Part shown: positions 1 through 26,791 of the stretch, piece after piece
Layout of the letters: the number at the start of each line of letters is the position of its first letter
How positions within the stretch are numbered: the first letter of the stretch is position 1
Source: Combretum micranthum
Taxonomy: Eukaryota; Streptophyta; Magnoliopsida; Myrtales; Combretaceae
Length of the DNA stretch: 64,000 nt
Assembly: GCA_024138025.1 (NCBI GenBank)
Contig: JAMXBD010001377.1
Coordinates: 62,001-126,000 of the forward strand
Direction of reading: 5' to 3'
The notes under the pieces: generated by a model
Database searches by the model: none
The model's input: only the letters and a program-made list of their open reading frames with translations
What the model was told of the DNA's origin: nothing
Position numbers and translations under genes: made by a program

Positions 1-478
1 CTACCTATACACCTATTTCTTACACTTTTACATTTCTAATATAACTTTATTCACATCAAACCTTACACATTACTTCTTTTCATTACAAAAATTAATCAAA
101 ACCCTCTCTCTTTCTTCTCCTTTATGCACCGGCCATCCCTCTCTCTTTCTCTATATTTTTTCTTTTTTAATTTATTTTATTACATCTAATTTTCACTTCA
201 AAATTCTATAAATACCTCATTCCTCCTTCATTCTTTCACACATCCATTTTACATAACAAAACTTTACCAAAATTCTCTCTCAAAACCTCTCTCCAACAAT
301 TCCCTCTCAAAACACTCTCTACCATTCACTACTTTTCAAGAAAAATAACAAAATCCAATCATCTCTTTTCAAATCCTCCATTAAACCTTAAGTAAAAAAA
401 ATCCTACCTATATTCTTTATCATGTTCATACAACTTTGCATGAGCTTAGTGTATGTTTCTTAGACTCATGAGAGTTAA
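1..478 (+). mobile_element. F1-1 LTR, left visible part (interrupted by F1-2)
   Basis: This is the upper-middle part of an F1 LTR read on the + strand. Its 5' end lies left of the window. It holds the pyrimidine-rich U3 stretch around 100-160, a TATA box at 207-214 and the start of the transcribed leader. It stops at GTTAA (474-478), the left target duplication of F1-2, and resumes at 3898. The orientation follows from the TATA box and from the GGGGCGTAACA end at 6843. No protein is encoded. Confidence 0.85.
207..393 (+). promoter_or_regulatory. F1-1 LTR promoter and leader exon to donor-like motif
   Basis: CTATAAATA at 206-214 is a canonical plant TATA box. About 180 bp downstream the sequence CTTAAGTAAAA (GT near 392) is this copy's version of the CTTAGGTAAA donor-like motif shared by the family. 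The last exonic G of the consensus is A here. Promoter function is inferred from motif and position. Confidence 0.6.
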
Positions 479-1760
479 TGTCATACCCTGAAGGGTACCC
501 CAAACGTGGCAGCCCGCCACATATAATATCAAGACTCAAGAATGACTACCTTAGTCACGCGAAAGCCTTAGTATTACATGTAAGACGTCTAGCATGGTAA
601 TAGGAGACACTTTTGGGAAGCATAGTCTAAGCAAGTAAAAATGAACATACAAAAATCCAGAAATAAAATATATCATAGCATTAATAACCAAAGGTCTATT
701 TCATGATTTCTTAGGGTCATACCCCTGCTAAATCCCAAAGATCGAAATAGTCTTTACAATATTTAAATACTACATTAGAGATTTCAAAGGAATTATAATC
801 TAAATCTTCAAGTAGATTTCCTCCAAAAGCTTCAAAAGAACACTTACGCAGATATGAGGAGACCTCGGGTACAAAAATAAATGTTCCTGAGAATGCAAAT
901 ACCTATAAAGGCATAAGCTTACGGGCTTAGTAAGTAAATTCCAAAAATTCATACTCAAAGTAAAATATCAACCAAGTTTATTAGTCAAGCAAATGGAATG
1001 CAACAACCACATGAGCATACAAGACATATGACTTTCCGAGAATCATATGTTGAATGAATTACGCCCTTCATTCGGGGTTAGGTATTCAGGTCAATTACAG
1101 CCATGACTTTTAAAACACTTTTATAGATCTTACCGACTCCTATACGCCATAAAAAACTTGTAGTTATTACATGGTCCTACTAGCCACCAATTTATGTAGT
1201 TCTTAGCGGCTCCTACTCACCACTTACGTGATATGCCGGTTATGCCTACCACCACTATTATACACTTATCCCACCAATTGCATAGTAGTGAATGAAATGT
1301 GACTTAGCATATGAAGTGTATACATAATTTCTTAATTAAAGTCTAGTAGTTATATTTAACTTCTTTCAAGTGAGCAACCAATTTCAAACACTTCAAGATA
1401 TTAATATACATGCAACTTTATTACAAATAAATCATGTTTCGATATACTTAATATTCTTTCAACATAATATCATACAAATTTCATTTGATTTTGCCTAAAT
1501 TCTAATGCAACTAAATTTACAAGTACAATCATAAGTATGAAAAATAACGGGGAGTAGACTCACTTAGCCATGATGACACCTTTCTTGTAGTGGATGAGTT
1601 GTTCGGGATTTCCACTAATCGTAGTAATCTTCAGAATATGAACAATCCTCCTCGAGATTACCTAATCAAGAAGAATACCTAAAATGAGTATTTCTTTTTG
1701 ATTCTATGGTACTAATAAGGAACTATGTTATAAGATCGTTAAAATTCGTATAAAGAGAAA

Positions 1761-1850
1761 TTCTATCTTAAAATGGCCCTAACTTGGTCATTTTAACTCA
1801 GAATTGCGCATATAATATACCGTTTTCTACCTAATCTAAAAGATCTATCC
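1761..1850 (-). other. Conserved ~95-bp F1 block (copy in F1-2)
   Basis: This is one of twelve copies of the best-preserved internal stretch of F1 LTRs. It includes AAAATGGCC(A/C)TAACTTG, ACTCGGAATT and TTTTCTACCTA. It lies 1.3-1.4 kb downstream of the TATA box. It has no recognised function; a structured leader RNA or protein-binding site is possible. Confidence 0.6.
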
Positions 1851-3083
1851 AATTCTAAAATTATTTTCATCAAACTAAGTCGTTTGAACTCTGAAATAGT
1901 GGTGATGATATGCACCACGAATTTTACAAAACTTACTTTCTTCTTTTTGTAAAAACTTAAATCAAAGAGATAGATATTATAATATTTGTAAGACCTTTGA
2001 AAAATTTACATATTTGTTTACTCATGTTAAATGCATGAAATCAATGAAGTTGTCTCAACTATAAATTTTTGGTAAAAAGTAAATCTTCTAAAACTTTTGA
2101 AATTTTCCTTTTAGTTTGTTAGAATTTTCTCAAGTCGTTTTGAAAGGGTATTTTCTTAATTCTATTTCCTTAAATTTCGAAAGAATGACTTCCACTTCCT
2201 AAATTCCTTATGGCTTAGTTTCTAATTCTTTTGAAAGTAATAATTCTATATTTTGAAGAAGTGATTTAGTATGTTGTTCATTAATTCTATTTTTATGAAA
2301 GGAAATTTCTTGGTGTTTGTCAAACTAGTCTTTTTGGAATGATGAAAAGTGAAGTTTTAGTAAAACAAGAATTTGAAATTTCTTAATGTTTAAAGAATAC
2401 TTTTTTCCAATAAATGTGTATTTTCTAAGAATTCCTCTTTTCTTTAGTTTCTAACTTCTATTATGAGCTCCACTAATTTCTTAGAAAAGATATACTAAGT
2501 TGGTTCCTTTTTCATTGAAAAATTGTTTTTTCATGACAACATTTATTTTTGGAGAAGAACTTCTATTTCAAGAAAACTTTTCTTTTTAATCTTTTTGAGA
2601 CAAAATCACTATGTTCATGCATGATCATGAAATAAAATTATGAAAACATAGGAAAAACATAATGGTAATAAAATAAAAAAATAAAGAAATATATCAAGTA
2701 TTGGGAACCTTAGCTTCATCAGGGTATCCCGGAGCTAAGAATGGACTAGTCGTAAAAGAAAAACAAAGAAATTGTTTTGACTTGATGAGGACAATTCTAA
2801 GACTAGAAAGACTAGTCTTAAAACAATATGAAAGTAAATAAACTGCAAGGAAAGTAAATAAATTGTAAAACAAAGGAGCTCATATACTCTAAAAGATATA
2901 TATAGCTACATAGATATATTTAGTTAAATATATATATATATGAAAGCAACATAAAAGAAATTAGATTCATGAACAAAAACAAATTATGAACTTATTGTTG
3001 CTTTCTTTAACCTTCATGGTTTAGAAAACACACACTAAGCTCATACTAAGTAAATGAACATAAAGGAAACTTGAAGAAATATT

Positions 3084-3199
3084 ACCTATGAAAACTAAAC
3101 TTGAGAGAACTTTGAGAGAGAATTCTTGTAGAATTTTGAGAGAGTAATTTTAGTGTATGGAAGATGTGAAAGAAGTGGAAGGAAAAGGGGGTATTTATA
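3084..3199 (-). promoter_or_regulatory. F1-2 TATA box to donor-like motif
   Basis: TATTTATA at 3192-3199 is a TATA box on the - strand. CATAGGTAAT with its GT at 3085-3084 lies about 110 bp downstream, where the family carries its conserved donor-like motif. Function is inferred. Confidence 0.6.
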
Positions 3200-3897
3200 A
3201 AAAAATGTGGGAAGAAATTTGTGTTAATTAAATGAATGAAAATTGAAACAAATTGAAGAGGGGAGGAGGCATGGCCGGTGCAAATTGAGTGCAGAGAGGG
3301 AGAGGAATTTATTTTTTATATTTTTGTTAATAAAAAGTAAGATATGAAAGATGTGAATTAGTATTGGAAATGAAAATTGCAAGAAAATAGAGGTATGGTT
3401 TGTAAGAGTAGGTTATAAGAAAAAGTAGAGATAGATAAATAGTGTCAAATAGTAGTAAATAGTGTAATGTAAAGTAGACATGATAATTTAAGTACCGGTA
3501 GTAAGAAAATACGCGTATAATTGCGATATCTGATATTTTTAATTATCGAAAAATTACAAAACTGATATTTTTGAAATCCTTATATTAAATTGGTCCTATT
3601 GGTGTTATCGGAATATTTTTATTATTCCGAGCTTCGGGACACGATTTTCGAGAACTGATCTCATTTGAGTCCGAAGGGCACTCGGATTTCGCAAATTTGA
3701 TATTTTTATATAACCTAAAGCTATTACGAACTATTATCACTAATTATTCCAACTTCGTTTTTGAGGGCCAAAGAAAACGGGAATGCTGGATCTAAAATCT
3801 AGGGTTTGTACCAGACTTTTGTTGACCTTTAGGGTTTCGATTGACTTTTTATTATAAGATCAAACTTAAAATTAACCGAAAATTTTAGGGGTTTACA

Positions 3898-6843
3898 GTT
3901 AAGGAAGCAACAACATGTTCATGTTCTGTTTTTATTCATGTTCCTATTTTACATTATGTTATTATGTTGTTGTTATTATTGTTATTATTATTTGCTCTAA
4001 TCTAACTTCTACATAGTATTATGTATATATATATTTCTTTAGAGCACATAAGCTCACTTATTATTTATTTATTTTCATGTTTTGTAATTTATTTATTTAA
4101 TGCAGTTTATTAAGCTAGTCTTTCTAGTCTTTGATTTGTCCATATCAAGTCAACACAATTTTCTTTGATTTCTTTTCTTTTGAGACTATTCTATTCTTAG
4201 TTCCGGGTTGCCTTGATGAAGCTAAGGCTCCCAATACATGATCGGGATATCTTGATGAAGCTAAGGTTCCCAATGCTTGACTATTATTATTACGTTTATT
4301 TACTTATGAGTATTTCTTTCTATCTTATTATGTATTATCCTTACTTTTACATTGCTACATAATCATATTCATGCATGATTAGAATATTGTTGTCTTAAAT
4401 AAAAATAAAAATGGATTCTTTCTTAAACAAAGGAAAAGTGAACTAGATATCTTAACAAAGGATTTTTCAAAAAAAAGTCTAAGTATTGTTTTTAATAAAT
4501 TCTTTTCAAAAGCTTAAGTAAGTTAATCATAAGTTTTAAAGTATTAGTGCCCAAGATTTCTTCAAATAAAAGAAACTCATTTCTTTTATAAATCAAAACT
4601 AAATACTCCATAAAAATAGAATTTTTAGCATTTAACTTAAGATTTTAACTCAATCATATCTTTTATAAGACTTAAATAGGTTCACTATAGACTTCGAAAA
4701 TCACATACTAAGAAAGTTTCTTCAAAATTTAAATTTTATATTGTTATTCTCTTTTCAAAATTAAAATGAAATTTTGCTAAGTTCTAATGTTAACAATTCT
4801 TTATTAAGAAAGCTTTTCTTATAAACTTGTCTAAAAGAATTATTCTACCACTTGATAAATATTAAGAATAAAACAAGTTTTCAAACCAAGGTAAAATCAA
4901 CTCACTATCTTAGAAACCAACTTAGAAAATAAAATTTGCCAAGCAAGTAAAGTTTAAAAAGTAAACTTATTTTTCTAAAGAAGAAAAAGGAAATAAAAAT
5001 GAGAGGAAAACATACATTTAACACAACTTCAAATATTTGACCACACAAAAAACTTAAGGAATATTTTGAAAAGCTCATTTTTCTATCACTAGAAATAAAG
5101 TTAGTAGATAACTTAAAGAACCAAATTTTTGGAAATTAATTTTCTTTTGAAAAGATAGGACATGGAATTATAATAGGAAAACACTCACTCATAACAACTC
5201 AAATATATTTTAGTTTTCCTTCTAACAATTCAAAAAGGAGAAATTTTCAAAAGTTTTATTTTTTAAAACCCTTAAAGGCAAATTGTTTATGAAATATCAA
5301 TATTGAGACAACACTACAAAAAAATCATGCATACAATATGAGTGTATATATATGTTCAAAGGATTTTTCCACTATATATATATCCATATATTTTGCTAAA
5401 GGATTTTGAGTAAAGTGAAGTTTGGAAAAATCATATTTTGTGAATTATAAATTCGTAACTATTCTGTACCGTAGTATTTTCCAACCCAAATGACTTTTTA
5501 TGATAAAAATAACCTTAGAAATGGATAGATATTTTCGAGTAGGTAGAAAACGGTATATTATTTGTGCAATTCCGAGTTAAAATGACCAAGTCATAGCCAT
5601 TTTAAGTTAGAATTACCTTATATACGAATTTTAACGATTTTATGACATAATTTTTAATAAGTGTCATAGATTCAACAAGAAGTACTTATTATGGGTATTC
5701 TTCTTGATTAGCTGATCCCGACGAGGAATATTCATATCCGGAGGGTTATTTTGATTAGTGGAATTACCGATCAACTCCTCCATAAGAAAGAAGTGTCCTC
5801 ATGGCCGAGTGAGTTTATTTCCTACCTTTTACATACTTGTTTGTGCTTGTAACTAGAGGCACTAGAAGTAGGAAAATATGAAAATGAATTATGTATGATA
5901 ATATTGGTCGAAAGAATAGTTGTTAATTAACTTGTGTTTTACTATTATTATGTTGGAGTGTGCAAATTTTGTGATCACCTTTAAAGTACTTTAATAATAT
6001 ATTATGAGTTATATTAATTGATTCATGCATATCACGTAGTTAGTTTCATCTCATGAGCTACTATACTAAATGGGACAAGAGTATAGTAGTCGGGTTTGCA
6101 GGAGCCATAAATCTGCAAGATGGGCAATTAGGAGCCTGAAAGAACTATTTCAAGATGGGTGAGTAGGCGCCTGAAATAAAGTACATAAGTTGGATTTTAA
6201 AGATGGGTTTTAAAGAGCCTGAAACACCTAACCCTGAATGGAGGGGTAAATCCATTCAAACATATGATTTCCGGTAGATCATATGTATTGTTTGTTCATT
6301 TGCTTGATGCATTCATATGCTTGTTTAATAATTTGTTTGAATTTATTGATATGAGTACGTTAAGTCAAGAATAATCTTACTAAGCTAGTTATGCTTATAC
6401 TCCGATAGACTTTTGATGTAACAGGACTATATCTTTTATGCTCAAGGACTTCATATACTCGAGTGGGATTATGTTTTGGAAAGCTTCTAGAAATCCTTTG
6501 AAGATCTTAGGCTTAATATCCTTAATATCTTTTGGTGTTAGTATTGTTTTCTTGTGTAAAAGATTAAGTTGATATTATGATTGTTTGGAGATTTATAGGG
6601 GAAAAACCCCTAAGATGATGTAAGGATTATATTCTTATAATATTGAAATTAGATGGCTATCTGGATTTCTTATAGGCTGTATTTACTATCTCGAACTATA
6701 CATCCCACTGGTGTCTTCTATTGTTGTGATAGATGCCTTACATATGGCATTGAAACATTCGCATGACTTCGGAAAGTCATTCTTAAGTTTTAATACCGTA
6801 TGTAGCGGATTGCCATGTCTAGGGTACCCTTTGGGGCGTAACA
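3898..6843 (+). mobile_element. F1-1 LTR, right part to its U5 end
   Basis: This continues from position 478 after the second GTTAA copy. It includes the gene-poor AT-rich R/U5 region, the conserved block at 5523-5615, degenerate tandem GGGCGAATAGGAGCC-like units around 6090-6230, and the terminal GGGTACCC and GGGGCGTAACA (6824-6843). The usual TGACA end is mutated to TAACA. The following base 6844 lies in the middle of another F1 LTR, so F1-1 was inserted into F1-3. Confidence 0.85.
4205..4285 (+). repeat. Two tandem copies of the F1 'CCTTGATGAAGCTAAGG' module
   Basis: A unit of about 55 bp (CTTGATGAAGCTAAGG followed by CTCCCAATAC or TTCCCAATGC and then TTGA or ATGA) occurs twice in a row. 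The same module is single in some F1 LTRs and present two or three times in others, so it is a marker of copy-number change within the LTR. Confidence 0.6.
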
Positions 6844-9541
6844 ACTAGCCCATGTAGACTTTCCGGCTCCTATTAGCCACCACTACGACTCCTCGTTTCC
6901 CCACATGAAGAATAGTAGTGAAAAATGAATGGGACACATAATATGTTATGCATGAATTGTTTTCCACATTGGTTTATTCAATTATCGTCGAGCTCAAGTT
7001 AAAGGTGACCAAAACAGTATTCATCATACCATTGCAAGAAAACATAAGTTATTCATCAATTCTTCTTTCGACATACTTAGCTTTTGTTCAACAACCACAT
7101 CATTCAATCATGAATCCAAATCACACCATATTTATTCATTTATCTTTTTCCTTACTCTTTAGTGCTACTACTTACAAGCACATTCAAGGAAATGTAATTA
7201 GTAAGGGATTAACTCACCCATGACAATCGCTCTTAGTCGAAATAATCTTCCAGGAAGGCGATATCAGTTCCTTTTTCACCTAAAGAAGATGAAATATCCA
7301 AAATGAGTCTTTCATAGAATCTCTACTTTAAGAATTCTAAGTCTATCTTTAATTTGCGGTAAAATCGGATTGAAGGAAGTTCCAACTTAAAATGGCCATA
7401 ACTTGCTCATTTTAACTTGGAATTTTGCATATTATATGTCTTTTTCTACCTAATCGAAAAGATCTATCCATTTCTAAGTTTACTTTTACTATAAAAGGTA
7501 ATTTGGGTCTCAGATTAGAATGGTACAGATCTAATATGAAAATTCCATTCTTGAAAAACAATATTTTCTAATCCTTCCTTTACTAAGGTTTGTTTAAGTA
7601 AAACTAAAATATGTGTATTTTTTAAAAGGATTCCTTATGTATATAAATAGACTCATAATTTATGCATGAAGCTATAGGTGTTGTCTTGTTTAATTTATTT
7701 TCTTAAAACAACCTTTTCTAGTGTTTTGGAAAAATTTGGATATGTTAGACCTTACTTTATGTGGGTGAAGTAACTTATAAATTTTTGCATGATCAAAATC
7801 TAATATACTATATTTTGATTCTTTAGTTTATCAAAAGTGAGTTGAAAATAAAGTTTGGTCTTTTGAGGTTATCTACAAAATTTATTTCTCAGAAATGAAA
7901 AATAGAGTTTCCAAAAGTTTTCTTTAGTAGTTCTTAATGAGTTTATTCTTTGAAAATTTATTTTCATTTTCCTTGTAAATTGACTTTCTTGAAAACTTAT
8001 TTAGCTCTTGATTTAGAAAGTTGGTAAAAATAGTACCAAGTTATTATATATATGTCAAGACTTTCTTTTGTTATTTTGAAAAGGAAAAATCTTTAGACTC
8101 TGGAGAAACTTCTTTTATTAATAGTTTGAAATTTCATGATAAGTTTACATAAACTTTTAAAAGAGATTTATTTGAAAAATATTTTTCTAATTCCTTGGAA
8201 AAACGTTCATCAAATTTTATTCTTTCATAAAAAAGATTCATTTTTATTTAGACAACAACTTATTAGCCATGCATGAATATGATCATGTAGTTTATAAAAG
8301 CTAAAAAAATATATCACAAGATAAGATAATAAAGAATATAAGAAATATATAAGCATAATAATAATTGTCAAGTATTGGGAGCCTTAGCTTCTTCAAGGCT
8401 TCCCGGGACTAAGAATAGACTAGTCCCAAAAGAAAAGGAAAATTATTTTGACTTGATGAGGACAAGTCTAAGACTAAAAAGACTAGTCTCAAAATAACTT
8501 GAAAGTAAATAAATTGCAAGGAAAGTAAATAAAATGCAATAACAAATGAGCTTATATGCTTTAAAAGAGATATATAACTACATAAATATATTTAGTTAGA
8601 TATACATAAAAACAGCATAAAGGAAAATAGATTCATGAACAAGAACAAAGTATGAACATATTGTTGCTTTTTTAACCTCCATGGGTTTAGAAAGCATACA
8701 TTATGCTCATACTAAGTAAATGAACATATAGAAAGCTTTAACTATTACCTATAGAAGACGAAAAAACTAGAGAAAATTTGAGAGAGCTTTTGGAGAGATT
8801 TTGGGAGAGTAATAATAGTGTATAAAAGGTGTAAAGGAAATGGAAGGAAGATGTGGTATTTATAGGATAAAGTGGAGGGTAATTTGTGTTAATTAAATAA
8901 AAAAAAATTGAGTGTGAATGGGGGAAGGCCGGCCCAATTTGTGCGGAGGAGAGAGAGGAATTTTTGTATTTTTATTAATGAAAAGTAAGATATGAGATAT
9001 GTGAAGTTGTATTGGAAATGAAAATTGTAAGAAAATAGGTATATGGTTGTAAGAGTAGGTTGTAAAGAAAAGTAGAGATAGATAAATAGTGTAGAATAGT
9101 ATTAAATAGTGTAATGGAAAGTAGATATGACAAATAAAGTACCGGTAGTAAGAAAATACGTGTATAATTGTGATATATGATATTTTTAGTTACCGAAAAA
9201 CTATAAAACTGATATTTTTGAAAACCTTATGTCTTTATGAGTCTAACGGTATATCCGGAATATTTTTTCTATTCCGAGTCTCAGGACATGTTTTTTCAAA
9301 ATTGTATTCGATCGGCTCAAAATGAATCGTGGTTTAACTAATCTGATATTTTTAAGCTTTCTTATATTATTACGAACTATTCTACATACTAATCTCTCAC
9401 TTACTCACTTAACGTTATGAACACGGGATTGTCGGACTTGAACGGTTGTGTCAGACTAGGTTTTGTTGACTTTAGGATTTCCAGTTGACCTTTTTAACTA
9501 AGGTTTAAGTTTAATCGATCGTAAAACTTTGGGGGTTTACA
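6844..9541 (-). mobile_element. F1-3 LTR fragment (interrupted by F1-1)
   Basis: The - strand LTR start TGTAAACCCC sits at 9541 downward. The segment runs through U3 (about 680 bp), TATA, leader and the conserved block at 7381-7470, and stops in mid-U5 at 6844 where F1-1 was inserted. The U5 terminus is left of the window. At 9542 the sequence drops into the middle of yet another F1 LTR (F1-4), which is the host of this insertion. Confidence 0.85.
8747..8864 (-). promoter_or_regulatory. F1-3 TATA box to donor-like motif
   Basis: TATTTATA at 8857-8864 is the - strand TATA box. TATAGGTAATAG with GT at 8748-8747 follows 110 bp later, at the same relative place as in other F1 copies. Confidence 0.6.
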
Positions 9542-11136
9542 ATAATAACATGAAAAAAAAAAAATAAATCACATGAGCATAAATAAAGGTTATATTAGTG
9601 AGCTTATGCTCTAAGAAATATATATACATAAATATATTTAATAGCATATAAAAGTTAGATTAAAAACAATAAATAAAGCATAAATAATATCAACATAACA
9701 ATAAAATTTTTGTATGAATAATAACAAAACATGAACATATTATTGCTTCTTTACTACCCATGGGTTCAAGAAGCATACACTATGGTCATGTTAAGTTACA
9801 TGACATGAAGAATGTTTAGAAACATTTACCTAAGGTTATGTGAAGATGGAGGAAGAAAGAAAGCTTTGGTAGTTGTATGGAGATGATGATGGTGTAGGAA
9901 GAAGAGAGAGTTGAGAAGAAATTTTTAGGAGAGAAAAATTAGAGAGAGAAGTTGATAAATGATTTTGGTAAAGTTTTGTTATGGTAAAAGAAAAATGTGT
10001 AAGAAGTGAAAGAGGGAAGGGATATTTATAGATAAAGTTAGAGGAAAATTGTAATTAATTAAATAAATGAAAAATAAAATAAAATTGATGGCATGAAGAA
10101 GAAGAGTAATTAAAAATTAATTTTAGAAGAAAAGTGTAAGAGAAGTTAAGTAAAAAGTAATATTGGAAAAGTAAATGTAAGAAATAGATATATAGATTGT
10201 AAGAAGTAGATAGTAAGAGAAAATAGAGACATATGAACAGTAATGAATAGTAGAAATAGTATAATGAATAGTAGACTATAAAATAAAATATCGGTAACAA
10301 TAAAAATATGCATAAACGAGTTATATAAGATTTTTTAGATTCCGAAAAATTCTAAAACTGATATTTTTGAAATTCTCATATTATTATGAGTCTAATGGTA
10401 TTATTGGAATATTTTTACCATTCGGTGTACCAGGGCATGATTTTCGATATTTGATTCTGTTCGGATCCGAAATGAACTAAATTTTAAGGATCTGATATTT
10501 TTAAACTTCTCTATATTATTACGGACTTTAATCCATAATTATCTTAACTTTATTATTTAGGGTAAAGAGCGTGGGATTGCCGAATCTAATCTCATTCGGG
10601 CTTGTTGTTGGCCTAGTTAACTTTTAGGGATCCAGTTTTAATTCTGGCTTTAAGATTTATTCGCAAGAGTATAAATTTTTTAGATTTATGACTGTTTTAT
10701 ATTTTTGGCTGAAAATTTATGTGTTTCTTTATTTTTATGATTTATGTAATATTTTTCAGTTACTGGGATTGTTCAATCTAGTTTAGGGTTGTGTGATGAC
10801 TCAGTTTGACTTTCGGTATTATTTATATTTTTTATTCCGAAATTAGCCAAAAGGCTTAAGGTTCTATAATTTTTTTCTTGAATATCATTCGGATATTCCA
10901 TCTCGATTTATGTGTTAGGGATCAAATAGATGAATTATTTCACGTTCAGGTTTTGAGTCAAACGATTATTGAATTCTATTTTGTTTTTTAAAGTTCTTTT
11001 TTTTTAAGGCCATGAAATTTCATATTTGATATTGTTTAGGGTTTGGTTTTAACTTAGGTCGGCTTTTAGGGTTTCGATTCGGTATTTTAATTTTAGGATT
11101 ATTTTCTAAGAGGTACGAAAAATTCGAAGGTTTACA
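9542..11136 (-). mobile_element. F1-4 LTR fragment, long-U3 class
   Basis: On the - strand the LTR begins at 11136 (TGTAAACCTTCG). The U3 is about 1.1 kb, some 400 bp longer than in F1-2 or F1-3. The extra upstream part matches that of F1-8 and F1-12. The copy stops at 9542 in the leader region where F1-3 was inserted, and its U5 is left of the window. Confidence 0.82.
9829..10030 (-). promoter_or_regulatory. F1-4 TATA box to donor-like motif
   Basis: TATTTATA at 10023-10030 on the - strand, then CTTAGGTAAATG with GT at 9830-9829. The intervening roughly 190 bp is purine-rich on + (pyrimidine-rich in the transcript), as in the other copies. Confidence 0.6.
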
Positions 11137-13626
11137 TCCCCTTCATGCCATCAATTTTCTTTTCTTTTTTATTTATTTAATTAACTACAATTTTCCTTTA
11201 CATTTATCTATAAATACCCCCACCCCCTCTCCCTCCACTTATTTCACACATCTTTATTTCATTTAACAAAATTCTACCAAAATTTCTTCATAACTTCTCT
11301 CTCCAAAATTTCCTCCAAACACTCTCTTCTTTCCTCCTTCATACAACAACCCTCTTCTTATAATAACCAATACATCATTTTCTCTTCCAACTACCATTAA
11401 TCTTAGGTAAAAAAATTCCTACAATTTTTCTTTATGTTAATGTAACTTAACATGTTCATAGTGTATGTTTTCTAAACCCATGGGAGTTAAGAAAGCAATA
11501 ATATGCTCATGTTTTGTTCTTGTTCATATAAAATTTTATTATTGTATTATTATTATGTTATGATATATTATTCTTGTTTCTAATCCAACTCATATATGCT
11601 ATTAAATATATTTATGTATATATGTTCTTAGAGCCTATAAGCTCACAAACATAACTTTTATTTAGTCATGCTCTTATATTTCTTACAATTTATTTATTTA
11701 TTTCATGCAATTTTATTAAGCTAGTCATTCTAGTATTAGACTTGTCCTCATCGAGTCAAAACATTTTAGTTTGCTTTCTTTAGGACTTGTTCATAATCTA
11801 AGTCTAGAGAGCCTTGACATAAATCTAAGCTTTCCATGTTTTTCCTATTATTTTCTTGTTTTTCTTTTTAAAACTAGTCAATTCTAACTTCCAGAATGCC
11901 TTGATGCAAGCTTAAACTTCCTAATACTTGATTTTACTTATATACTTATTTAATTTTCTATGACTTTTATTTTTATGTACGTTATTCTTTTTTACATAAT
12001 TATATGTTCATATTCATGCATGAACCTAATGTTGTGTCTTGATAAAATTTCCAAAGAAACAAAAGGGGTTATTTTCTCTCACTTAAGAAGAAGAACTAAA
12101 TTCTCTAAAAACATGATTTTAACACCTAGAAAAAAATTTCCATTAAAACTTATGATCATGGTTTAACAATATTCTTTTTAAAAATTTAAATAAATTCATC
12201 ATAAATCTCTAAGTGATGTTATAATGCAAAGATTCTTCAAAACTTAATTATATGGTTCTCTTACTCTTTTTTCAAAATACTAAAATAAATTATTAAATCT
12301 TAAGGTTGACAGTTCTTTTCGAGAAGGTAGAAAACGACATTTTATATGCAAATTTTCGAGTTAAAATGAGCAAGTTATGGTCATTTTAAGTTAAAATTTC
12401 AATTCATTCGATTTTTGATGAAAATAGTGAAATAGAATTAAAAAGTTTGATTAGAACTTCCGTGAAATACTCATTTCAAATATTTCTTTAGTTTAGGTGA
12501 TGAGGAGTTGGAGGATCCATATCAGGAGGACTTTTACAAGTAAAAGGATTTTTTTGGCAAGGATGGTCGAGCGAGTTTATTTCCTACTTTTACATACTTG
12601 TTTGTGCTTGTAGCTAGAGATACTAGAAGTTGTAAAAAGATGAAAATGGAATATGCACGATAATATTGGTTGAAAGTATACAAAGCATATCGAGACATGA
12701 ATTGTTGTTAATTAAATTGTGTTTTATTATCATGTTGGAGTGTTTGCAAATTCTATGATCGCCTTTAAATTACCTTAATTACATATTAAGAGTTATATTA
12801 ATTGATTCATGCATATCATGATGTGAGTCACATTGCATGTAGCTACTATACCTCGGTGGGACAAGAGTATAGTAATGAAGTAATCGCAGGAACGGTAAGA
12901 CTGTCAAGATGGGTGAATAAGAGCTGAAAGAACAATTTTAGGATGGGCGAATAGGAGCCAGAAAAAAACTACAAAGTAGATGACAAAGATAGGTTTTAAA
13001 AAGCTGGAAATACATAACCTCGAATGGAGAGCATAATCCATTCGAACATATGATTTCCGGTAGATCATATGTATTACTTGCTCGCTTGCTTGATACATTT
13101 CATATGCCCATTTAGTAACTTATTTGAATTTATTGATACAAGTATGCTAATCCGAGAATATTCTCACTAAGCTAATTAAGCTTACACCCCAATAGATTTT
13201 TGTTGACACAGGATCAATATCTCTTATACCCAAGGCCTTCGGTTACCAAGTAGGCTTACGCTTTTGAAAAGCTTTTAAGGGAAATCATTTTAAAGATCTT
13301 AGAATAGATTTCCTTTAAAATCTTTGTAGTTATAGTTGTTGTTATATTTAAGATTTAGACTATATATTTGATATTGGAGAATTATCGAGGGAATGCCCTA
13401 AGTTTATGTAAAGACCTTATTATGACTAATCTAGTGAATATATGTTTATTAGTTCTTATGCTTTATATTACTACTTAAATCACATATCCTACTAGTGTTT
13501 CCTGTTATTGTGTTAGGCACCTTACATATAATATCAAGACTTTCGCATGACTAAAGTAGTCATTCTTAAGTCTTAATATTGTATGTGACGGATCGCCATG
13601 TTGAGGATACCCTTTGAGGCGTGACA
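11137..13626 (+). mobile_element. F1-5 LTR fragment, promoter to U5 end
   Basis: This starts abruptly just upstream of the TATA box because F1-4 was inserted there. It then runs through leader, conserved block (12313-12400) and U5 to the terminal TTTGAGGCGTGACA at 13626. The next base lies in the middle of another + strand F1 LTR (F1-6), so F1-5 is an insertion in F1-6. Its U3 lies left of the window. Confidence 0.83.
11209..11408 (+). promoter_or_regulatory. F1-5 TATA box to donor-like motif
   Basis: TATAAATA at 11209-11216 is followed by a CT-rich untranslated stretch. A near-consensus donor CTTAGGTAAAAA has its GT at 11407-11408, about 198 bp after the TATA box. Confidence 0.65.
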
Positions 13627-14550
13627 CTATGTGTGTGAATATTGATTGATCGCCTTAAATGATTATTAATTGTGGATAAGAAATTCCTTATAACTAAATT
13701 GATCATGCATATCACTTAGAATATCATGCCCACATTTTGCTACTACTCCTTAGCGTAGGACTAGAAAGGTAAGCTACCTAGTTATATTTTGAGAATTAAG
13801 ATGTTCGGGAATACGACCTCATGATATAGTTGAGCCAGATCGATCACTTTGGGTAAAGAATACCCAGGGACTAGTAGAACGTTGTTTGGAACCCCAAGAC
13901 ACGTGTGCAAAGGTCATTGGACCCATTCAAAGTGTTCCCTAACCCCGAATGGAGGGCATAAATCCTTTCTACATATGAATCTGGATAGTCATATGTATTT
14001 GTTTGATCATATAGTTGTTGCATTTCATATACTTGCTAATGGACTTTTTTGATTTATTTTTTATGAGTACTTTTGTGTAAGGAATATCTCACTAAGCTCG
14101 TTATGCTTACCCCTCAATAGATTTTTTATGTTTTCAGAATCATTGTTTTTGCACCCGAAGCCACCTTGTTTGTCCGAGTAGGATTTACGCTTTTGGGAAG
14201 CTTTTGGAGAAATTCTATTTGAAGACTTTAAAGTAGCTTTTCCTTTAAAATCTTTTGGTTATATTTATCTGTTAAGTAAGACTATGATATCTTGAGATTA
14301 TCTGGGGAATACCCCTATGATATTGTAAGACTATTGACCTTTAAGTTGTGAATATGAATGTTTAAGTATTTTCTTGGTTGCTATGTTTTTACTATCTTGA
14401 ACAACATATCTTATAGGTATCTCATATTGTTGTGAAAGTATGCCTTACACATGGTATCGATGCTTTTGCATGACTAAGGAATGTCATTCCTAAGCTTTAA
14501 TATCATATGCGACGGATTGTCATGTTTATGATACCCTATGGGGTGTGACA
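13627..14550 (+). mobile_element. F1-6 LTR, U5 part only (outermost of the left nest)
   Basis: This is the last 0.9 kb of a + strand F1 LTR ending GGGGTGTGACA at 14550. It contains the landmark sequence around ACCCCGAATGGAGGGCATAA (13941-13960) and the CTCACTAAGCTCGTTATGC stretch. Its central U5 resembles F1-8 and F1-12 (the ACTAGTAGAACG segment) rather than F1-1 or F1-10. It is the oldest layer of the left nest. Confidence 0.8.
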
Positions 14551-14935: not shown

Positions 14936-16296
14936 TATCATGTTCCAAAGGATACCCTAAACGTGATAGCTTACCACACTCAATATTAAAGCTTAAGTAT
15001 AACTATCTTAGTCATGCAAAAGCTTCGATACCAATTTTAAGGCGTCCTTTCACGATCTTAGAGAACCATACTTTGAAACAAGTAGCTTATAAAATATATG
15101 CATAATAGCGATTAAAAAAATCATAACATTACAACTTAGTTCTTAATATAAGGAGTCTTACAGAAAACAAAGGCGGCATACCCTCATCAAAATATACACT
15201 TCATACATTAGTTCTTCAAAAATAAATACAAAGGAGTTTTCTTCTGGGTCATGACTTCTTTCAAAAGCTTCTAGATGCCAAAAGGTCGTTACCTATGTAA
15301 AATATCCCTGGGCTTCAACCACAAAAAGGGGATCTGGAAAAGGTATCTAAGGGAGTGTAATCTTACTTGCTTAGTGAGAGATATTTCCATGATAATGCAC
15401 TCATTACAACAAATTTCAAACAAGTTAATTTAAGCAAACATATGTAATGCAACAAACACGTGAGCAATCAATACACATCATATTAAAAAAAATCATATAT
15501 TGTATGGATTTATGTGCTCCAGTCGAGATTAGGTGTTCCGAGCCCATATGACCAAAGTTCGCAAATAACAGATTTTGCAGTTCTTTTGGGCTACTGCTCG
15601 CCTTTAAAATGTAGTTCATCGGCTTCTACGTGCTAAAACAACAAAAATAGATTTCGGGCCCCTGCGTACCTTACTACCATACAGTTATCCCACCAAAGGT
15701 ATGTAATGAATGTAATGTAATGTAACTTACTTTGTGATATGCATGAGTTCATTTAATTAGATTCTTTTATCATACTAATAAATATCTTAGTGGCAATTAT
15801 AAAATTTGCAGACACTCCAATATAAATCTAAACAACCATTTGATTATCGATAACTCAGGCTTCGATATGCTTAGTATAATTTCAACCAATCGTATAAGGT
15901 ACATTCACTTTCTGATTTTTATCTTTTCCTATTCTAGTGCCACTATACTACAAGCAAAAATATAAGTATAGAATTTAAGGAAATAAATTCACTCCACCAT
16001 GGTGCGGGAAAGGTCCACTAATCAAAGTAATCATTGGGATAAGGAAAGTCGTCTCCACATCATCTAAACAAGAGAAATATCCAAAATAAGTATCTCATGG
16101 AAATTCTACTTTAACTTGCTAATTCTAGCTTACTATGTTCGTTAAAATTCAGATTGTGTGAAATTCCGACTTAAAATAGTCATAACTTGCTCATTTTAGC
16201 TCGAAATTTCACATATTATATGTCATTTTCGACCTACTCGAAAAAATCTATCTATTTATAAGGTTATTTTCAATCATATAAAGCCATTTGGGTTCC
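14936..16296 (-). mobile_element. F1-7 solo LTR, part 1 (U5 end)
   Basis: The U5 terminus is degraded (TATCATGTTCC where the family has TGTCATGCCCC). The rest aligns with F1 U5, including the conserved block at 16161-16255. It breaks at 16296 within the host sequence TTGGGTTCC, and GTTCC (16292-16296) is the left TSD of F1-8. It resumes at 37159-37302 and again at 49590-51774, giving a reconstructed length of about 3.68 kb. Outer TSDs are ATATC (14931-14935) and ACATC (51775-51779), one mismatch. Confidence 0.85.
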
Positions 16297-16302
16297 TGTC
16301 AT
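16297..16302 (-). mobile_element. F1-8 first six bases (TGTCAT)
   Basis: These six bases are the extreme U5 end of F1-8, cut off from the rest at 25641 by F2-1. GTCAT (16298-16302) doubles as the left TSD of F2-1 and is repeated at 25636-25640. The LTR edge is preceded by GTTCC, matched by GTTCC at 37159-37163 after the other end of F1-8. Confidence 0.85.
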
Positions 16303-17382
16303 TGTAATCCCCCCTAATTTTATGTAATCTAATTTTAGCAAATACTAAAAATGTAATATAGAATTATTTAGAATATTTGGAACGAGTAGTAAAAATCGCT
16401 CCAAAATTTTCTCGAATTAAAAATGTTAAAATGTGATTGAATTTGATTATAATTAGAAAGATTAGAATCTCTACCAATAAACATTTTGGAATACAAATTG
16501 TAACTTCAATGATTTCAAATAATTTATAAACAACGATAAACCAATCGTTAATATAAATTCCTGAATCATTTTTCCTTAAGTTCAATACTTAGAAAATAAA
16601 TCCTACGTTTGCTAAATAATGAAATAATAGTATTTAAGCTATTTCTAATATGTCAACTCTATTAAGGAGCACTAGAAAAAATACGTTGTTATTAACAAAT
16701 TAGTATAAATAACTCTCATTTAGTAAAACATAATATTTGGTAAAATAATCAATAGTCCAATAAGAAATCATAGCTAACCTTAAATTTAAATCACAATAAA
16801 AGACGATTAAAGTTTTAGAACCTACAAGTTATAAAAATATAGACTAAAGATAAATCACTAGAATTACAAAATATACGATAAGATAAAAAAATAGATTGAT
16901 ATCTAAGAATATAGATCTTAAATAAATAATTAAATTACAATAATATTCTAATTAAAAGATTTAGAGATTTTAGAAATTAAAATCCTAAGTTGTCAATGTA
17001 ACCTTCAATAATTTTCATAATTAGAAAATAAACAAATTAGCAAATGTGAAACTAATATCAAATATATGATTCAACAAAAATCTTTGAATAGATCTATGAA
17101 TCGTAATAAACCCATTCTTAGTTTGAAAAACCCGAATAAAAATTTCTTTAACCTTAATAGATACCAAAAACGAGATTTCGTATCTTGAACTGATAATTCA
17201 AGGTATATTTAGAAGTAGTCCTAAATTTCAAACCCGATAAAATATAATTTAGTAATAGAACTTATTGGCATAAATGATAATCCAAAGATGAACTACTAGT
17301 ATTATAAATATGTAGTAGATATTAATATAGATCACTAAACACAAGTCTATATCTCAAATAAAAATTTCAAACACACTGTTAT
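16303..17382 (+). mobile_element. F2-1 LTR, part 1 (5' end)
   Basis: This starts TGTAATCCCCCC at 16303 and runs through very AT-rich U3 with no coding signal. It is interrupted at 17382 by F1-9, with GTTAT at 17378-17382 as that insertion's TSD. It resumes at 21049 and ends at 25635. The reconstructed length is about 5.66 kb with TSD GTCAT on both sides. It is longer than most plant LTRs. Confidence 0.83.
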
Positions 17383-18626
17383 TGTCACGCCCCAATGGGT
17401 ACCCTAAATGTGACAGTCCACCACACTCAATATTAAAGCTTAAGTATGACAACCTTAGCCATTCCCAAAAGCTTTTTTATTAAGTGTAAGGCGTACTTTC
17501 ACAACTTTAGAGGACCATATATGGAATTATGAAGCTTAAGGAGATATAGAAACATATTAAGAAAAGAGGATTCACAATAATTATTCATTCATGGCAAAGA
17601 CTTTACAAACTTAGGGACAACTCCCTAAATTACTAATCTATTATATAAATATTTGCATGCTAATACTATGCTACACTATACCCAAGTTTCTAATGTTCAA
17701 GAGAGATTACCTGCCCGCATGGTCCACGTGGCCTTAACCATAAGTACGGGAACTGCAAAAGATATCTATTGGGGTATAAGCTAATAGGCTTAGTGAGAAC
17801 TATTTCCATAAATAACTTCTTGTAACAAGATTCAAACAAGTTGATTTAATCAAACAAATGTAATGCACAAGCACGTGGGCAAACAAGCATATAGTTTTCC
17901 GGGAACTATATGTTGAATGGATTTACGCCCTCCATTCGGGGTTTGGTGATACGTAACCTCAATTCAAGTAGATTTAATTAAAAAGTTTTCTTGCTCACGA
18001 GCACACATCGTCGAGCATTCCGAATCTACTTGATTGACCTTGCTTTCGGATCTACCGCCAAGCATATTCCATTAAGCCGCCAAGCAATCGCTTTCGGATC
18101 TCCCGCCAAGTGTTGCTTTCGACATGAGCTTACTATCCTTCTCACCCAAGGATAATAACCCAACCATGCAATGTGACTCACTTCGTGGTATGCATGAGTT
18201 CATTAATTTATAAAGTCATAACATAATTATTTTCAACTTTATGGCGATCAAGGAATTTCACACAAATCAATATTAAACTAAAACAATCACTTAGAACAAT
18301 TCTGGCTTCGATATTCTTAGGATTCTTTCAAGGAATTATTTTACATGCATATCGGTTTATCTTTTCCTAACTCTAGTGCAACTAATTTACAAGCACAACA
18401 AGTGTAGCATTTAATGGAAATAAACTCACGATGCCATTGTCGTCTATTCCTCTAAGCGGATGAGTCGTTCACACACTCCACTTAATCGTAATAATCCTCG
18501 GGGTAAAGGAATCCTTTCTCGGGGTCACCTAGCCAAAGAAAATACCCACAATGAGTTTTTCTTGATGATTTTCTTGAATTTTGACAAAACAATGTCAAAG
18601 AACGTCAAAGTTCGTATGAAAGAACG

Positions 18627-18720
18627 TTCCAACTTAAAATGGCCATAACTTGGTCATTTTAACTCGGAATCGCGCATATAATATACCGATTTCTACCTAC
18701 TCGAAAAGATCTACCCATTT
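18627..18720 (-). other. Conserved ~95-bp F1 block (copy in F1-9)
   Basis: A well-preserved copy with AAAATGGCCATAACTTGG, AACTCGGAATC, TATAATATACC and TTTCTACCTACTCGAAAAG. The neighbouring sequence on both sides differs far more between copies. Confidence 0.6.
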
Positions 18721-20219
18721 CCGAAATTATATCCAACAAACAAGGCCATATAGGCTCTGAAAAAGTAGTGACAAAATTCACCACGGATTTCCAAGTAAAA
18801 ACAACTTTGGTTCAAGGAATCAAAATTGTTTGATAAATACTTAGTTATCTATATAGTTGAAAAATTCTCTTTTTTATAACTATATAACTCATATTTAAGC
18901 ATGCTCAAGTGTCTTGTTGTCCAATTATTTTTCTTAGGTAAAACAATGTCGGGTTGAAGCTTTTCGGAAATTGTTTTTGTAAATTTCTTTGAAATGAATA
19001 CCTTGTTTTCTTTATTTTCTAAAAACGTTTTATGTTGGTTTTATTTATCTTTTTCTAAGTGACCTTTGAAAATAAAATTTTCTACTTTCTAAGTTACATT
19101 AATACTATATTTGAAGTTTTCTAGGAAATATGCTATTCTTCATTTTTCTTGTGTAAATTCCTTTGTTTACTTGTTTTGCAAAAATCCTTACTTGATATTT
19201 CTCATTCTTTTTCTCATGTCTCATATTTTTCAAAAATAATCATCCATGCATGAAAATTTGTTTTCTTCATAAAAACAATGTGGAACAATTAAGGACTTTT
19301 TGTAGAAAAACTAATTTCTATAATCTTATTAACTTCTTCTTGTAACTTGAAAAGAAATAACTTTATTATTTTCAAACCATAAATTTTCTTTGCCTATTTG
19401 TTTGCAAAGGTCTTTACTTAAAAATTTCCTTAGTCATTCATCTTATTTTCTTTCTTATGAAAAGAACCATTTTTGTCAACAAAATATTTTCTTTTGAAAA
19501 ACAAGGTGGAATAATAAGGATCTAAGTGGCTTTTTAAAGTAAAAGTAGTTTATAAAATTATAGTGAGTTCTTTTTGTAACATGAAAAGGAATGAGTTTAT
19601 TTTTGTTATCTTATATATTTTATGCTTCATAAACTTATTTTCAAGTGACAAAAATCCTTCTTTTGTTTAATTATCTTTAGAAAATAAAATTTTTGGACAA
19701 CAATCTAAATGAACATGATTATGAGATAATAATAACCAAAATAACATAAAGCATAATAATAAAGTCAAGTATTGGAGTCTTAGCTTTTTCAAGGCTCCCG
19801 GGACTAAGAAGTAAACTAGTCCCATAATGAAATAAAATGAAAGGAAAAAAAACTTGTTTTGACTTGATGAGGACAAGTCTAGACTAGAGACTAGTCTTAA
19901 AAACACTCGGAATAAATAAAATGCATTGAAGTAAATAAATTGCATGAAAGGTAAATAAATTGCAAGATCATGAGCTTATATGCTCTAAATAGTATATATA
20001 GCTATATAGATATAGTAGATAGTTATGAACATAAAAGAAACATAAATGATCATAAGAGAAACATAAATGAATATAAAAAAACATGAACATAAAGGAATTA
20101 TGTTATGGACAAAAACAAAGTATGAACCTATTGTTGCTTTCTTAACCTTCATGGTTTTAGAAAACACACATTAAGTTCATACTAAGTAGATGAACATGGA
20201 AACTTCTTGAAGAATTTTT

Positions 20220-20348
20220 ACCTAAAGGAATGAGCTAAAGAGAACTTCTTGAAAGAACTTCTTGGAGAGAAATTCTTGAGAGATTTTGAGAGAGTAATTT
20301 TAGTGTAGAAGTGGTGTGAAAGAAGTGAAAGAGAAGGGGGTATTTATA
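20220..20348 (-). promoter_or_regulatory. F1-9 TATA box to donor-like motif
   Basis: TATTTATA at 20341-20348 on the - strand. TTTAGGTAAAAA with its GT at 20221-20220 follows at about 121 bp. U3 is short class. Confidence 0.62.
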
Positions 20349-22387
20349 GGAAATTGAGGAGTGATTTTTGTGTGATTAAAATAAAGTGAAATTAAAACAA
20401 ATTGAGGGCATTGAGAGAGGGGGGCGCCGGCCATGCATGGGAGGGGTGTTTTGTTTTATTTTTTTTTTGACTTTTTGAAGAAATAAAAGATGTAATATGT
20501 AAGGTAGATATAATATAAAGTTATGGGAAAGGTAAAAAGTTAAGATTATAGGTTTTGAGTGTAAGAATAGGTGTAAGAAAAAGTAGAGATAAAAGAATAG
20601 TGTAGAATAGTAATGAATAGTGTAATGTAAAGTAGATATGACAATTAAAGTACCGGTAGTAAGAAAATACGCGTATAATAGCTATATCTGTTATTTTTAC
20701 TTACCGAAAAATTACGAAACTGATATTTTTGGAAAACTTATATTTTTACGAGTCTAACGGTGTATTCGGAATATTTTTACTATTCCGGCTTCCGGACACG
20801 TTTTTCGAGAACTGTGTCCGATCGGGTTCGAAGGACACCCGAATTTCACGAAACTGAAATTTTTATAAAACCTATGGTTATTACGAACTATTTTAGCTAA
20901 TATCCAACTTCGTTTTCAGGGCCAAGAAAACGGCAATGCCGGATTTAGTTGGATACGGTAAACTAGGGTTTTGTTGACCTTTAGGGTTCCGTTTGACTTC
21001 CGGTTTAGGGTTTTATGCTAAACCGATTCCGAAAATTTAGGGTTTACAGTTATACTTATTAGGGAATTCTGAATTCATTAAGACTTAGTTCCTAATTCGA
21101 TTTATTGGACTTGAAAAATTTAATCGCGTGAGTTAAAATACTAAAAATAATTAATCGTGTAAACTTTAAACTAAAAATTTGAATATATAAATAATCTAGA
21201 GTTTTTCTAGTAAATTATATAAATTTATCTAGATAAAACTCATACGTAACGGTTATAGATATATGTTTATAACATAATATTAGTAAAAATATTTTAGTTA
21301 ATTACTATTAATCAACTAATAAACAAACCAAACAAAAAAAAAATGAAAACCGAACTTTGAAGCAAATCACGAACAGTCTTCACGCTAGAGGAATCCTTCA
21401 TGTTGGAAAATGCGTCATGGAACAAAGGACAACAAATTTGAAATCATGGCCAAAGTCCACGCATCAGCAAATCCACAATTCTCAGTTGGAACAAAGGAGA
21501 CTTCAAGTTGCAGGAGTTTCACGTGGACAGGGGCACAGTACAGCAGCAGGGGAGAAATTCTTCAACTTTCACGTAGTTTGATCCAAATTTAAGCTCCGGA
21601 ATTCAACTTGAAAATGACCTTCAAACCAATCAAATGATTCGAGCTTGGATCCTTATTAAATCAAGAAGAAAATCTACTCATATTTACAAGTTGAAGTAGC
21701 TCCATTCCAACGTGAAAACTGCAGCAAAGAGGGAACAAAACAATATTTTAACTTTGCTTAGTTGAGTCGTTTTTTTTTTTTTTACTAAATGAGCACCAAT
21801 TAAAAACCTTTAAATGCACACTTCAAACACCAATTATTGGCTAGAAAACAACAAGAGAAATCTGATAAAAAAATCCATGCCAACTAAGGTGGAAAAAAAA
21901 AAACTGCAGCAGACACTTGAATATTTGGCCTCTGTTTTCACACGAATTTTAACCTGATTTTTGTGCAACTTGAGCTCCAAATTTACACCTATAAAATGAC
22001 CTTAATTAACTAGCAAACAAATACAATTAATTCCCCTAAAAAACAACCACAATTTTTGTACAAATTCATCAAAAATAGTCTTTAAATTCGCACCACAAAT
22101 CCCACCCGAGAACAATAGCTGGAACATGATCTATAGCCCTTCATTTGCTCCGATTTTTCTCAACCATTTTGTACTTCAAATAAACCACTATTTAATAGCC
22201 TTAATTAACTAGAAAATAAACCCCATAAATATCCTTTAAACAACTACAAAAATCTATCAAAAAAGAATATAAAAAAAAATTGTCATCCAACACAGTTGGT
22301 TTTCTATCCGAGATTTACAGCTACAAACACATATTTTTCCAAGTCTAAAACACCCTCTCTTGTACCTAAATCTTATCCTAACATTAG

Positions 22388-22399
22388 TATATATATATA
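22388..22399 (+). promoter_or_regulatory. F2-1 TATA-like box
   Basis: TATATATATATA, followed by a pyrimidine-containing leader with many CAAA and CCAAA runs. F2-2 has the corresponding TATATATA at about 62904-62912 on the opposite strand. Promoter function is inferred. Confidence 0.45.
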
Positions 22400-23589
22400 G
22401 GCTTAAGTTGGCTACAAAACCAACTCAAAATCTCCCCAAACACAATCCAAAAATTTTCCCCAAATAGCCACCACGAATTTCATATATCCATCTTCTTTGC
22501 TCACTTGTTCAACCTTGTTTAAACACTTCAAAATAAAAGTGTATCCCTTGTTTTTACCTTATGGCATTATCTAAACATCAATCCTTAACAAACACAATCA
22601 AAACCCCACTTTAACTAACCCAAACAACATAAAAAACCAAGCTAAATAGCCTTGGTTTACCATAGACCCAAGTTGGATTCTAAGCTTAACAAGGTAAGAA
22701 AACAAAACCAATATATATGCTAGTTGGCTAGATTAATTTTTCCTTAGTTACTCATCTTCTTACCTTACTCTTTAGATCATTATTTTCATCAAGAATGAGG
22801 AGCTAAATTCATTCTAGCATCCAACCAAGGTAAGGATCATATTAAGTTTAAGTGTTCATTATGTTTGATCTTTAGAAATTGACTTATAAATTTATCAAAA
22901 TTGATATAATAGTATATTGATGATAGTTAGACTATTTAGGATATAAATATATCAACTTAAAGATTTTTAAGTGTGGAAATTCAAATCCTAGAAAGGAAAA
23001 ACTGAAACCATACCTAAACTATAACAAACTAAGTTGAACCTTAGATAACTTATGTAAATCCCTAGGAAGATTGAATAAACTGTATTGATGTGTTTATTAT
23101 AAGCAAAACATGACCCCACCAATGGAAAGAACATGACAAATCCTATGAAATCGACTATTTATTTGTTAAAAATGGATAAGAAAAGAATTAGATATTGCAA
23201 AAACAAAAATTGGATTATTGTTGCCAGATTTGTATGAATAGAGCGAATTGTTCTTGCATTTTTTGCCCCCTTAATGACCTTGTTTAATGAAAAAAAACCC
23301 TATCAATGGATTGTACTCGGAAAATACTATGAAAATGACTATTTATTCATAAAAAAATGGACTAGAAATGAGTTAGATATCACAAAAACAAAGTTAAGAT
23401 AAAACTGTCATGATTCATCCGAAAATTGCAGACTTGATTTATGAATTTAAAAACCTTACATGTTTCTTTTCTTGAAAATAACACCACTACTAGAAAGTAC
23501 TCGAAGAGTACTATCAAATCGACTTTTTATACAATGAAATCGGATTTAAAATAAATAAGAAATCGCAAACTAGAAAATCACTAAGTTTT

Positions 23590-26685: not shown

Positions 26686-26686
<1 letters not shown>

Positions 26687-26719
<33 letters not shown>
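26687..26719 (+). repeat. C33 homopolymer
   Basis: Thirty-three consecutive C, in the U3 of F1-10 about 70 bp upstream of the TATA box. Other F1 copies have short purine- or pyrimidine-rich sequence (for example a GCCGG motif) at this place. On the - strand it is a G33 run able to form quadruplexes. Its exact length is error-prone in any sequencing technology. Confidence 0.9.
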
Positions 26720-26722
<3 letters not shown>

Positions 26723-26791
26723 TCACATAATGCCTCAAATTGTTTTATTTTTCAATTATTTAATTGACACAAATTATCTCCCACATTTTCC

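Follow-up and report, generated by a model that had tools for sequence, protein, structure and literature searches.

A six-deep self-nest of one long-LTR retrotransposon family and its duplicate in the genome of Combretum micranthum

Same-family nesting of long terminal repeat (LTR) retrotransposons, or autoinsertion, is named for Tekay, Ale, Athila, CRM, SIRE, Retand and Reina in some plant species in an extract of PMC6911290, and nests of LTR retrotransposons up to 8 layers deep are reported from wheat chromosome 3B in an extract of PMC4290129. Here we describe a block of the Combretum micranthum genome in which copies of one long-LTR family, F1, are inserted into each other in an ordered chain of six. 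The stretch that was analysed (the window, 64 kb) corresponds to positions 62001-126000 of contig JAMXBD010001377.1 (C1377) of an assembly of 1.86 Gb in 5442 contigs. The window contains 15 copies of F1, one more than the preliminary description of this DNA had counted, and they cover 44.4 kb or 69% of it, in agreement with the earlier statement that the family occupies most of the window. Beyond this share, little else in the window is recognisable as host sequence.

The F1 nest resembles the nests of wheat chromosome 3B in its layered insertions of LTR retrotransposons, although the number of layers per family does not appear in the extract of PMC4290129. It shares same-family nesting with the autoinsertions of PMC6911290, in the extract of which LTRs are the least-hit region, whereas the targets in the F1 block are LTRs, because most of the block is composed of solo LTRs. 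The F1 block differs from those autoinsertions, as extracted, also in having an ordered six-step chain and a duplicate with empty sites. No description of a six-layer chain of one family was found among the titles and abstract openings surveyed, and we claim no priority. Deep nesting and same-family autoinsertion have already been published, and the F1 nest is an unusually well documented case of them.

The six-deep chain and its left halves

From the inside out, the chain consists of F1-2 in F1-1 in F1-3 in F1-4 in F1-5 in F1-6. Positions 1-14550 of the window hold the complete F1-2 and the right parts of the other five copies. The junctions are at 3897/3898, 6843/6844, 9541/9542, 11136/11137 and 13626/13627, and F1-6 ends at 14550, where the preliminary description had placed them. 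All six edges are true F1 termini (TTTACA or CGTRACA), and the first five open into the middle of the LTR of the next copy. The strands given here are those of the elements, which are opposite to the TGTCA...TTTACA reading of the LTRs; LTR coordinates are on the scale of F1-2, and negative coordinates are positions to the left of the window start in C1377, which begins at -61999. Strict alignment scoring was adopted, as shuffles scored just as high for most pairs when AT-rich sequence was aligned leniently with gaps.

The innermost copy, F1-2 (479-3897, minus strand), a complete 3419-bp solo LTR, is inserted at about 2529 of F1-1, and its target-site duplication (TSD) GTTAA, at 474-478 and 3898-3902, is exact, as reported before. 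F1-1 (plus strand) occupies 1-478 and, beyond F1-2, 3898-6843, where it ends in CGTAACA followed by ACTAG, at about 737 of F1-3. The right part of F1-3 (6844-9541, minus strand) ends in TTTACA followed by ATAAT, at about 2334 of F1-4; that of F1-4 (9542-11136, minus strand) in TTTACA followed by TCCCC, at about 2792 of F1-5; that of F1-5 (11137-13626, plus strand) in GTGACA followed by CTATG, at about 917 of F1-6; and that of F1-6 (13627-14550, plus strand) in GTGACA followed by TTAAG. A hotspot of entry within the LTR was considered, since five of nine entry points fall inside 458 bp, yet the scan P was 0.09 and the claim was dropped.

The preliminary description had proposed extending the sequence leftwards, with ACTAG as the expected TSD of F1-1, and in the flanking sequence of C1377 on that side ACTAG indeed stands immediately before the start of F1-1 at -668. 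The left part of F1-3 (-1391 to -669) is preceded by ATAAT, which equals its right-side flank, and F1-4 continues to the left of -1391. There F1-4 is interrupted by F1-9 (-20809 to -1527, TSD AAAAT) and by F1-11 (right end at -22190), and F1-9 is itself interrupted by F1-14 (-18649 to -13905, TSD GGGAC). Copies starting at -54630 and -45955 were tried as the start of F1-4 and were ruled out by their flanks and neighbours.

A second copy of the nest is located in contig C977. The two copies are 96.78% identical over 38,273 aligned bases in 12 blocks (Kimura two-parameter distance, K2P, 0.0331), and the duplicate extends from -22246 to 49091 in C1377 and over C977:179974-241998, each side with private insertions. 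The second copy may be a homoeologue, a segmental duplicate or a haplotype. Contig C4354 has shorter pieces in common with the block. Two rates were used for dating. An alternative LTR rate is 7e-9 substitutions per site and year. The faster rate, 1.3e-8 per site and year, is quoted in an extract of PMC7251063. The split between C1377 and C977 is thus dated to 1.3 million years (My) at 1.3e-8 or 2.4 My at 7e-9. Read from left to right, C977 contains the left part of F1-6 (from 172431), that of F1-5 (175048-175631), that of F1-4 (from 175632) and F1-11; next, F1-9 ends on the right at 185855, F1-3 and F1-1 begin at 185991 and 186679, and F1-2 occupies 199484-202894. F1-11 is clean in C977 (176921-180026, TSD TAATT).

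All six copies are thus represented in C977 by their left halves, in mirror order. There the target is continuous across F1-4 in F1-5 (coordinates 2809 and 2792) and across F1-5 in F1-6, where the left side lies at about 837-919 according to seven references and the right half at 917. The flank TTGAG of the left end of F1-6 is the sole one with a 4/5 match among five TGTAAAC words in 44 kb. The flanks of the inner three copies match in full (GTTAA, ACTAG and ATAAT, each 5/5). Of the 11 TSD-paired F1 insertions in C1377 (10 exact, one 4/5), eight are into F1, younger copies inside older ones with the TSD on both sides, which constitutes same-family nesting. The inner three steps of the chain are closed on two contigs and the outer two on one, and the six-deep nest predates the split of C1377 and C977 at K2P 0.033. 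When 201 bp spanning the F1-4/F1-5 junction were searched against the genome, there were 2614 first-look candidates, of which 40 were scored. Among these 40 places, C1377 has the whole junction and C977 has it from base 5 onwards. The remaining 38 places include 33 where the match stops at query base 97-103, which is the LTR end, two where it starts at 101-103 and three where it extends to 106, 114 and 147.

The relative ages of the copies agree in most cases with the order of nesting. In a tree built from a single piece of each copy, the terminal branch of the inner member is the shorter one in eight of ten nested pairs, terminal branches being upper bounds on age only. According to an extract of PMC7251063, about one fourth of nested elements have LTRs more diverged than those of their host. 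The F1 copies are about 50-84% alike, and their activity was therefore spread over a long time.

Structure of F1 elements

The LTRs of F1 are about 3.3-4.7 kb long and, on the F1-2 strand, read TGTCAYRCCCC...GGGGTTTACA. The true orientation of the element is the reverse of this reading, because the minus strand has the primer-binding site (PBS) TGGTATCAGAGC, followed by Gag pieces, immediately within the LTR edge at 43939. We take TGGTATCAGAGC to be a PBS of the initiator-methionine tRNA type. An intact F1 element is present at -34535 to -22388. Its LTRs measure 3659 and 3605 bp, and it has TG...CA ends, the 5-bp TSD ATCAT, the PBS TGGTATCAGAGC inside the 5' LTR and the purine tract GGGGGGTAGG ahead of the 3' LTR, so that it qualifies as an LTR retrotransposon. 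Its LTRs are 99.0% identical (K2P 0.0102), which corresponds to 0.39 My at 1.3e-8 or 0.73 My at 7e-9.

The interior of the intact element is 4.9 kb long, its longest open piece has 222 amino acids, and it includes a putative capsid piece and a zinc-knuckle (CCHC) piece. The Pfam family Retrotrans_gag (PF03732) scores above its cut-off for the copy at 43939 and for the intact element, and Ty3_capsid (PF19259) matches F1 Gag at 1.6e-5, under its own cut-off. Judged from these matches, the predicted Gag is of the gypsy type and F1 appears to be a Ty3/gypsy-type family. Two open pieces upstream of Gag in the intact element (-27144 to -26140, minus strand) have no Pfam match, and neither pol nor a chromodomain was recognised in F1 in a Pfam search that covered just four pieces of the intact copy. 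The enzymes of F1 are presumably supplied in trans by a relative. A broken Ty3/gypsy pol with reverse transcriptase, RNase H, a weak integrase and SH3_Tf2-1 at L008:1860-4655 adjoins the right side of a solo F1 LTR; the flanks of this LTR are TGATT and TGATC, and the pol is assigned to another element, interrupted by F1.

Large retrotransposon derivatives, which are non-autonomous LTR elements, have two long LTRs, a PBS and a purine tract and lack pol. F1 is like them in its long LTRs, PBS, purine tract and lack of a recognised pol in the four pieces searched, and unlike them in that the intact copy has Gag pieces and further upstream open reading frames. Long LTRs are also characteristic of Tekay/Del chromoviruses. 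F1 shares this feature with them. It also has a Ty3/gypsy-type Gag in common with Tekay/Del chromoviruses as extracted from PMC6317226, but since no pol or chromodomain was found in F1, it cannot be assigned to this or any other lineage.

Serial insertion and the possible roles of retention and targeting

F1 has remained active in both copies of the block since the split. Private to C1377 are F1-14 in F1-9, F1-26075 in F1-A, F1-8 in F2a, F1-43939 in unidentified sequence and F1-10 in F1-11, and also an Athila-like element in F1-9, which holds the F1 copy F1-13, and the intact F1 element inside F1-10. C977 has a private two-LTR F1 element in F1-1 (TSD TCAAA, LTR K2P 0.036 and 0.021 in two blocks), an F1-8-type LTR in F1-1 (ATAAT), and two LTRs of the F1-26075 type, one in F1-4 (4/5) and one in F1-A (GCGAA). 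Empty sites are preserved in C977 for F1-14 (GGGAC), F1-8 (GTTAT) and the Athila-like element (CTTGT), and conversely in C1377 for the four F1 insertions private to C977. Thus the repeated waves of F1 into its own copies that had been suggested before are borne out by a nest older than the split, by further F1 gains in both contigs and by the intact copy with its nearly identical LTRs. The Athila-like element, a label that we assume, is at L003:1-7975 (window -9999 to -2025) and has the TSD CTTGT and TGGCGCCGTTGCC after its LTR; F1-13, within it, is a solo F1 LTR with the TSD TGGAA. A further difference of 448 bp between C1377 and C977 lies at 4841.

Seven of the nine F1 insertions that entered the shared block after the split landed in F1, compared with an F1 share of 80.2% of the target (P for seven or more, 0.74), the target being 39,958 bp, of which 7,912 bp are not F1, within approximate block boundaries. 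The count of nine leaves out the intact element and F1-13, the targets of which are private, and includes F1-26075, F1-43939 and F1-10, each of which lacks a clean paired empty site with a TSD. Within the shared block there is no detectable preference of F1 for F1, as judged from small numbers in one block.

Based on the nest, its duplicate and the empty sites, the block very probably arose as F1 integrated, time after time, into LTRs that it had left earlier. Each integration leaves a 5-bp duplication of the target. Most of the inserted elements are now solo LTRs, presumably through LTR-LTR recombination, and these take up the next wave of F1. F1 hits F1 within the block because F1 makes up most of the available target. 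The richness of the block in F1 may reflect a regional preference of integration or slower loss there.

The preliminary description had expected left halves in mirror order with matching TSDs, and this holds for F1-1 and F1-3 in C1377 and, as to order, for all six copies in C977. Several observations weigh against the reconstruction. The duplications of F1-4, F1-5 and F1-6 have decayed (TCTTC/TCCCC, 3/5; TTATG/CTATG, 4/5; TTGAG/TTAAG, 4/5), and their left halves are seen in C977 only, since their left ends were not found in C1377 before the contig start. Because of this decay, which is in line with the greater age of the outer copies, their placement depends on order, LTR coordinates, termini and flanks. 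The left end of F1-9 is seen only in C1377, as a deletion removed it from C977, and F1-26075 has no clean TSD. For F1-1 in F1-3 and for F1-5 in F1-6, two of the ten pairs, the terminal branch of the inner copy is the longer one. A moderate self-preference is still compatible with nine post-split events.

The depth of the chain alone says little about targeting. If insertions fall uniformly at random in a block that grows, the probability of a six-deep F1 chain in 64 kb ranges from 0.01 to 0.77 by assumed density (transposable element fractions of 0.75-0.98 and F1 shares of 0.75 or 1), and from 0.08 to 0.77 at fractions of 0.95-0.98. High density alone can therefore yield deep chains, as would be expected if F1 lands widely and persists in the block while copies near genes are lost by deletion or selection, so that nesting follows from density. 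The strong divergence among the copies is also what long survival would produce. Retention alone does not explain nine F1 insertions into about 40 kb of shared block in two lineages since the split, unless F1 is very active genome-wide, and we consider the chances of this explanation to be even.

The alternative is that the chromatin of old F1 copies is recognised by an integrase, probably one that a chromodomain-bearing relative provides in trans, and that new copies are thereby directed to them. The nine F1 gains against one Athila-like gain in the shared block since the split, with F1 gains in both copies, speak for such targeting, and so does the contrast in density. Of 34 points in the C977 nest, 28 showed F1 similarity (78% of bases), compared with six of 40 500-bp points sampled from the genome (15%, interval 6-30%; 11.3% of bases; two of the first 20 points). 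The contrast is biased upward because the probes came from the nest duplicate and miss diverged copies elsewhere; the contigs sampled belong to the longer ones. An extract of PMC6317226 assumes that chromoviruses owe targeting preferences to their chromodomains, but according to the same extract seed-plant chromodomains are without the aromatic cage binding histone H3K9 methylation, and F1 itself has neither a chromodomain nor pol among the pieces given to Pfam. Against targeting stand the lack of a detectable self-preference within the block and the regional rate: if the rate is uniform, the four F1 insertions private to C977 in about 39.6 kb have P of 0.06, 0.14 or 0.71, depending on the F1 share assumed, which is not significant. 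The chromatin-targeted integration put forward in the preliminary description was not demonstrated by these counts, and we regard it as doubtful. The block is presumably heterochromatic, a regional preference of F1 is possible, and the richness of the block in F1 fits regional targeting and regional retention equally.

We speculate, with still less confidence, that a Gag-only F1 relies on a borrowed integrase that is guided to blocks of solo LTRs of the family, which would form a self-renewing landing zone and gene-sparing sink, growing in two independently evolving copies.

Within the window alone, only the innermost insertion of the chain has both of its sides, so that misassembly, or truncated copies joined by deletions instead of nested insertions, could be envisaged; both this and chance are very unlikely because of the TSDs in two contigs, the mirror-order left halves and target continuity in C977, the empty sites, and the F1-4/F1-5 junction, whole solely in C1377 and C977 among the 40 scored places.

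The duplicated nest constitutes a natural experiment, in which one ancestral block present in two contigs has received at least four private F1 insertions in each since a split at K2P 0.033. The age bracket and the target of these insertions are known, and most of them have an empty site in the opposite contig; counting them could therefore separate targeting from retention. The ordered chain provides a check on LTR-based dating.

Right-hand nest and other copies in the window

The right-hand nest and the copies F1-7 and F1-8, which had been listed as separate items, together form one nest that extends from 14936 to 37300, with both sides within the window. Its outermost copy, F1-7 (minus strand), occupies 14936-16297 (coordinates 1 to about 1410) and resumes after F1-A at 37159 to about 37300. 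The continuation has a summed score of z 18.7 (0 of 200 shuffles), and its two sides meet at coordinates 1404 and 1399 on copy E. A longer F1-7 remainder, 37159-38460, was rejected, as strict BLAST supports F1 for about the first 140 bp only. F1-A (16298-37158, minus strand, TSD GTTCC) is a solo LTR in F1-7, split into pieces at 16298-16303, 25636-26074, 29416-32045 and 35760-37158.

Three insertions separate the pieces of F1-A. F2a (16304-25635, plus strand, TSD GTCAT), which belongs to another LTR family with similar ends, lies six bases inside F1-A and holds F1-8 (17383-21048, minus strand), a complete solo LTR with the TSD GTTAT. F1-26075 (26075-29415, plus strand) is a solo LTR absent from C977, where the site is G-rich and not clean. 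A run of 33 C at 26687-26719 and a G-rich junction at 26060-26074 mark this copy, and the site in C977 has a longer G-rich stretch. F1-32046 (32046-35759, plus strand, TSD ACATA) is a solo LTR that is also present in C977.

To the right of the nest lies the degraded F1 element F1-43939 (38388-48318, minus strand), with its 5' LTR at 43939-48318, the PBS TGGTATCAGAGC and Gag pieces at 38463-39548 and 42600-43493. It is absent from C977, where the sequences flanking its site on the left and right stand 326 bp apart. Within it, at about 39850-42455, lies an LTR-like sequence from a different family (TGTAGACACCC...), which has the flanks CATCC and includes a tandem array at 41020-41364. A reading of F1-7 and F1-43939 as the LTR pair of one element is doubtful, as their outer flanks mismatch (ATATC and GTTTT).

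Copy C (49589-51774, minus strand) is a right part, from coordinate about 1560. Between it and copy D, 51775-52168 (minus strand) contains integrase-like words (TIQTLEDM) by eye and gave no Pfam match in three pieces. Copy D (52169-55114, minus strand) is interrupted by copy E (55115-58756, minus strand), the right end of which was not recognised. The segment at 37392-37561 resembles 58908-59071 (69%) and is not F1; the two adjoin the F1-7 remainder and copy E, respectively. F2b, a relative of F2a, starts at 59417.

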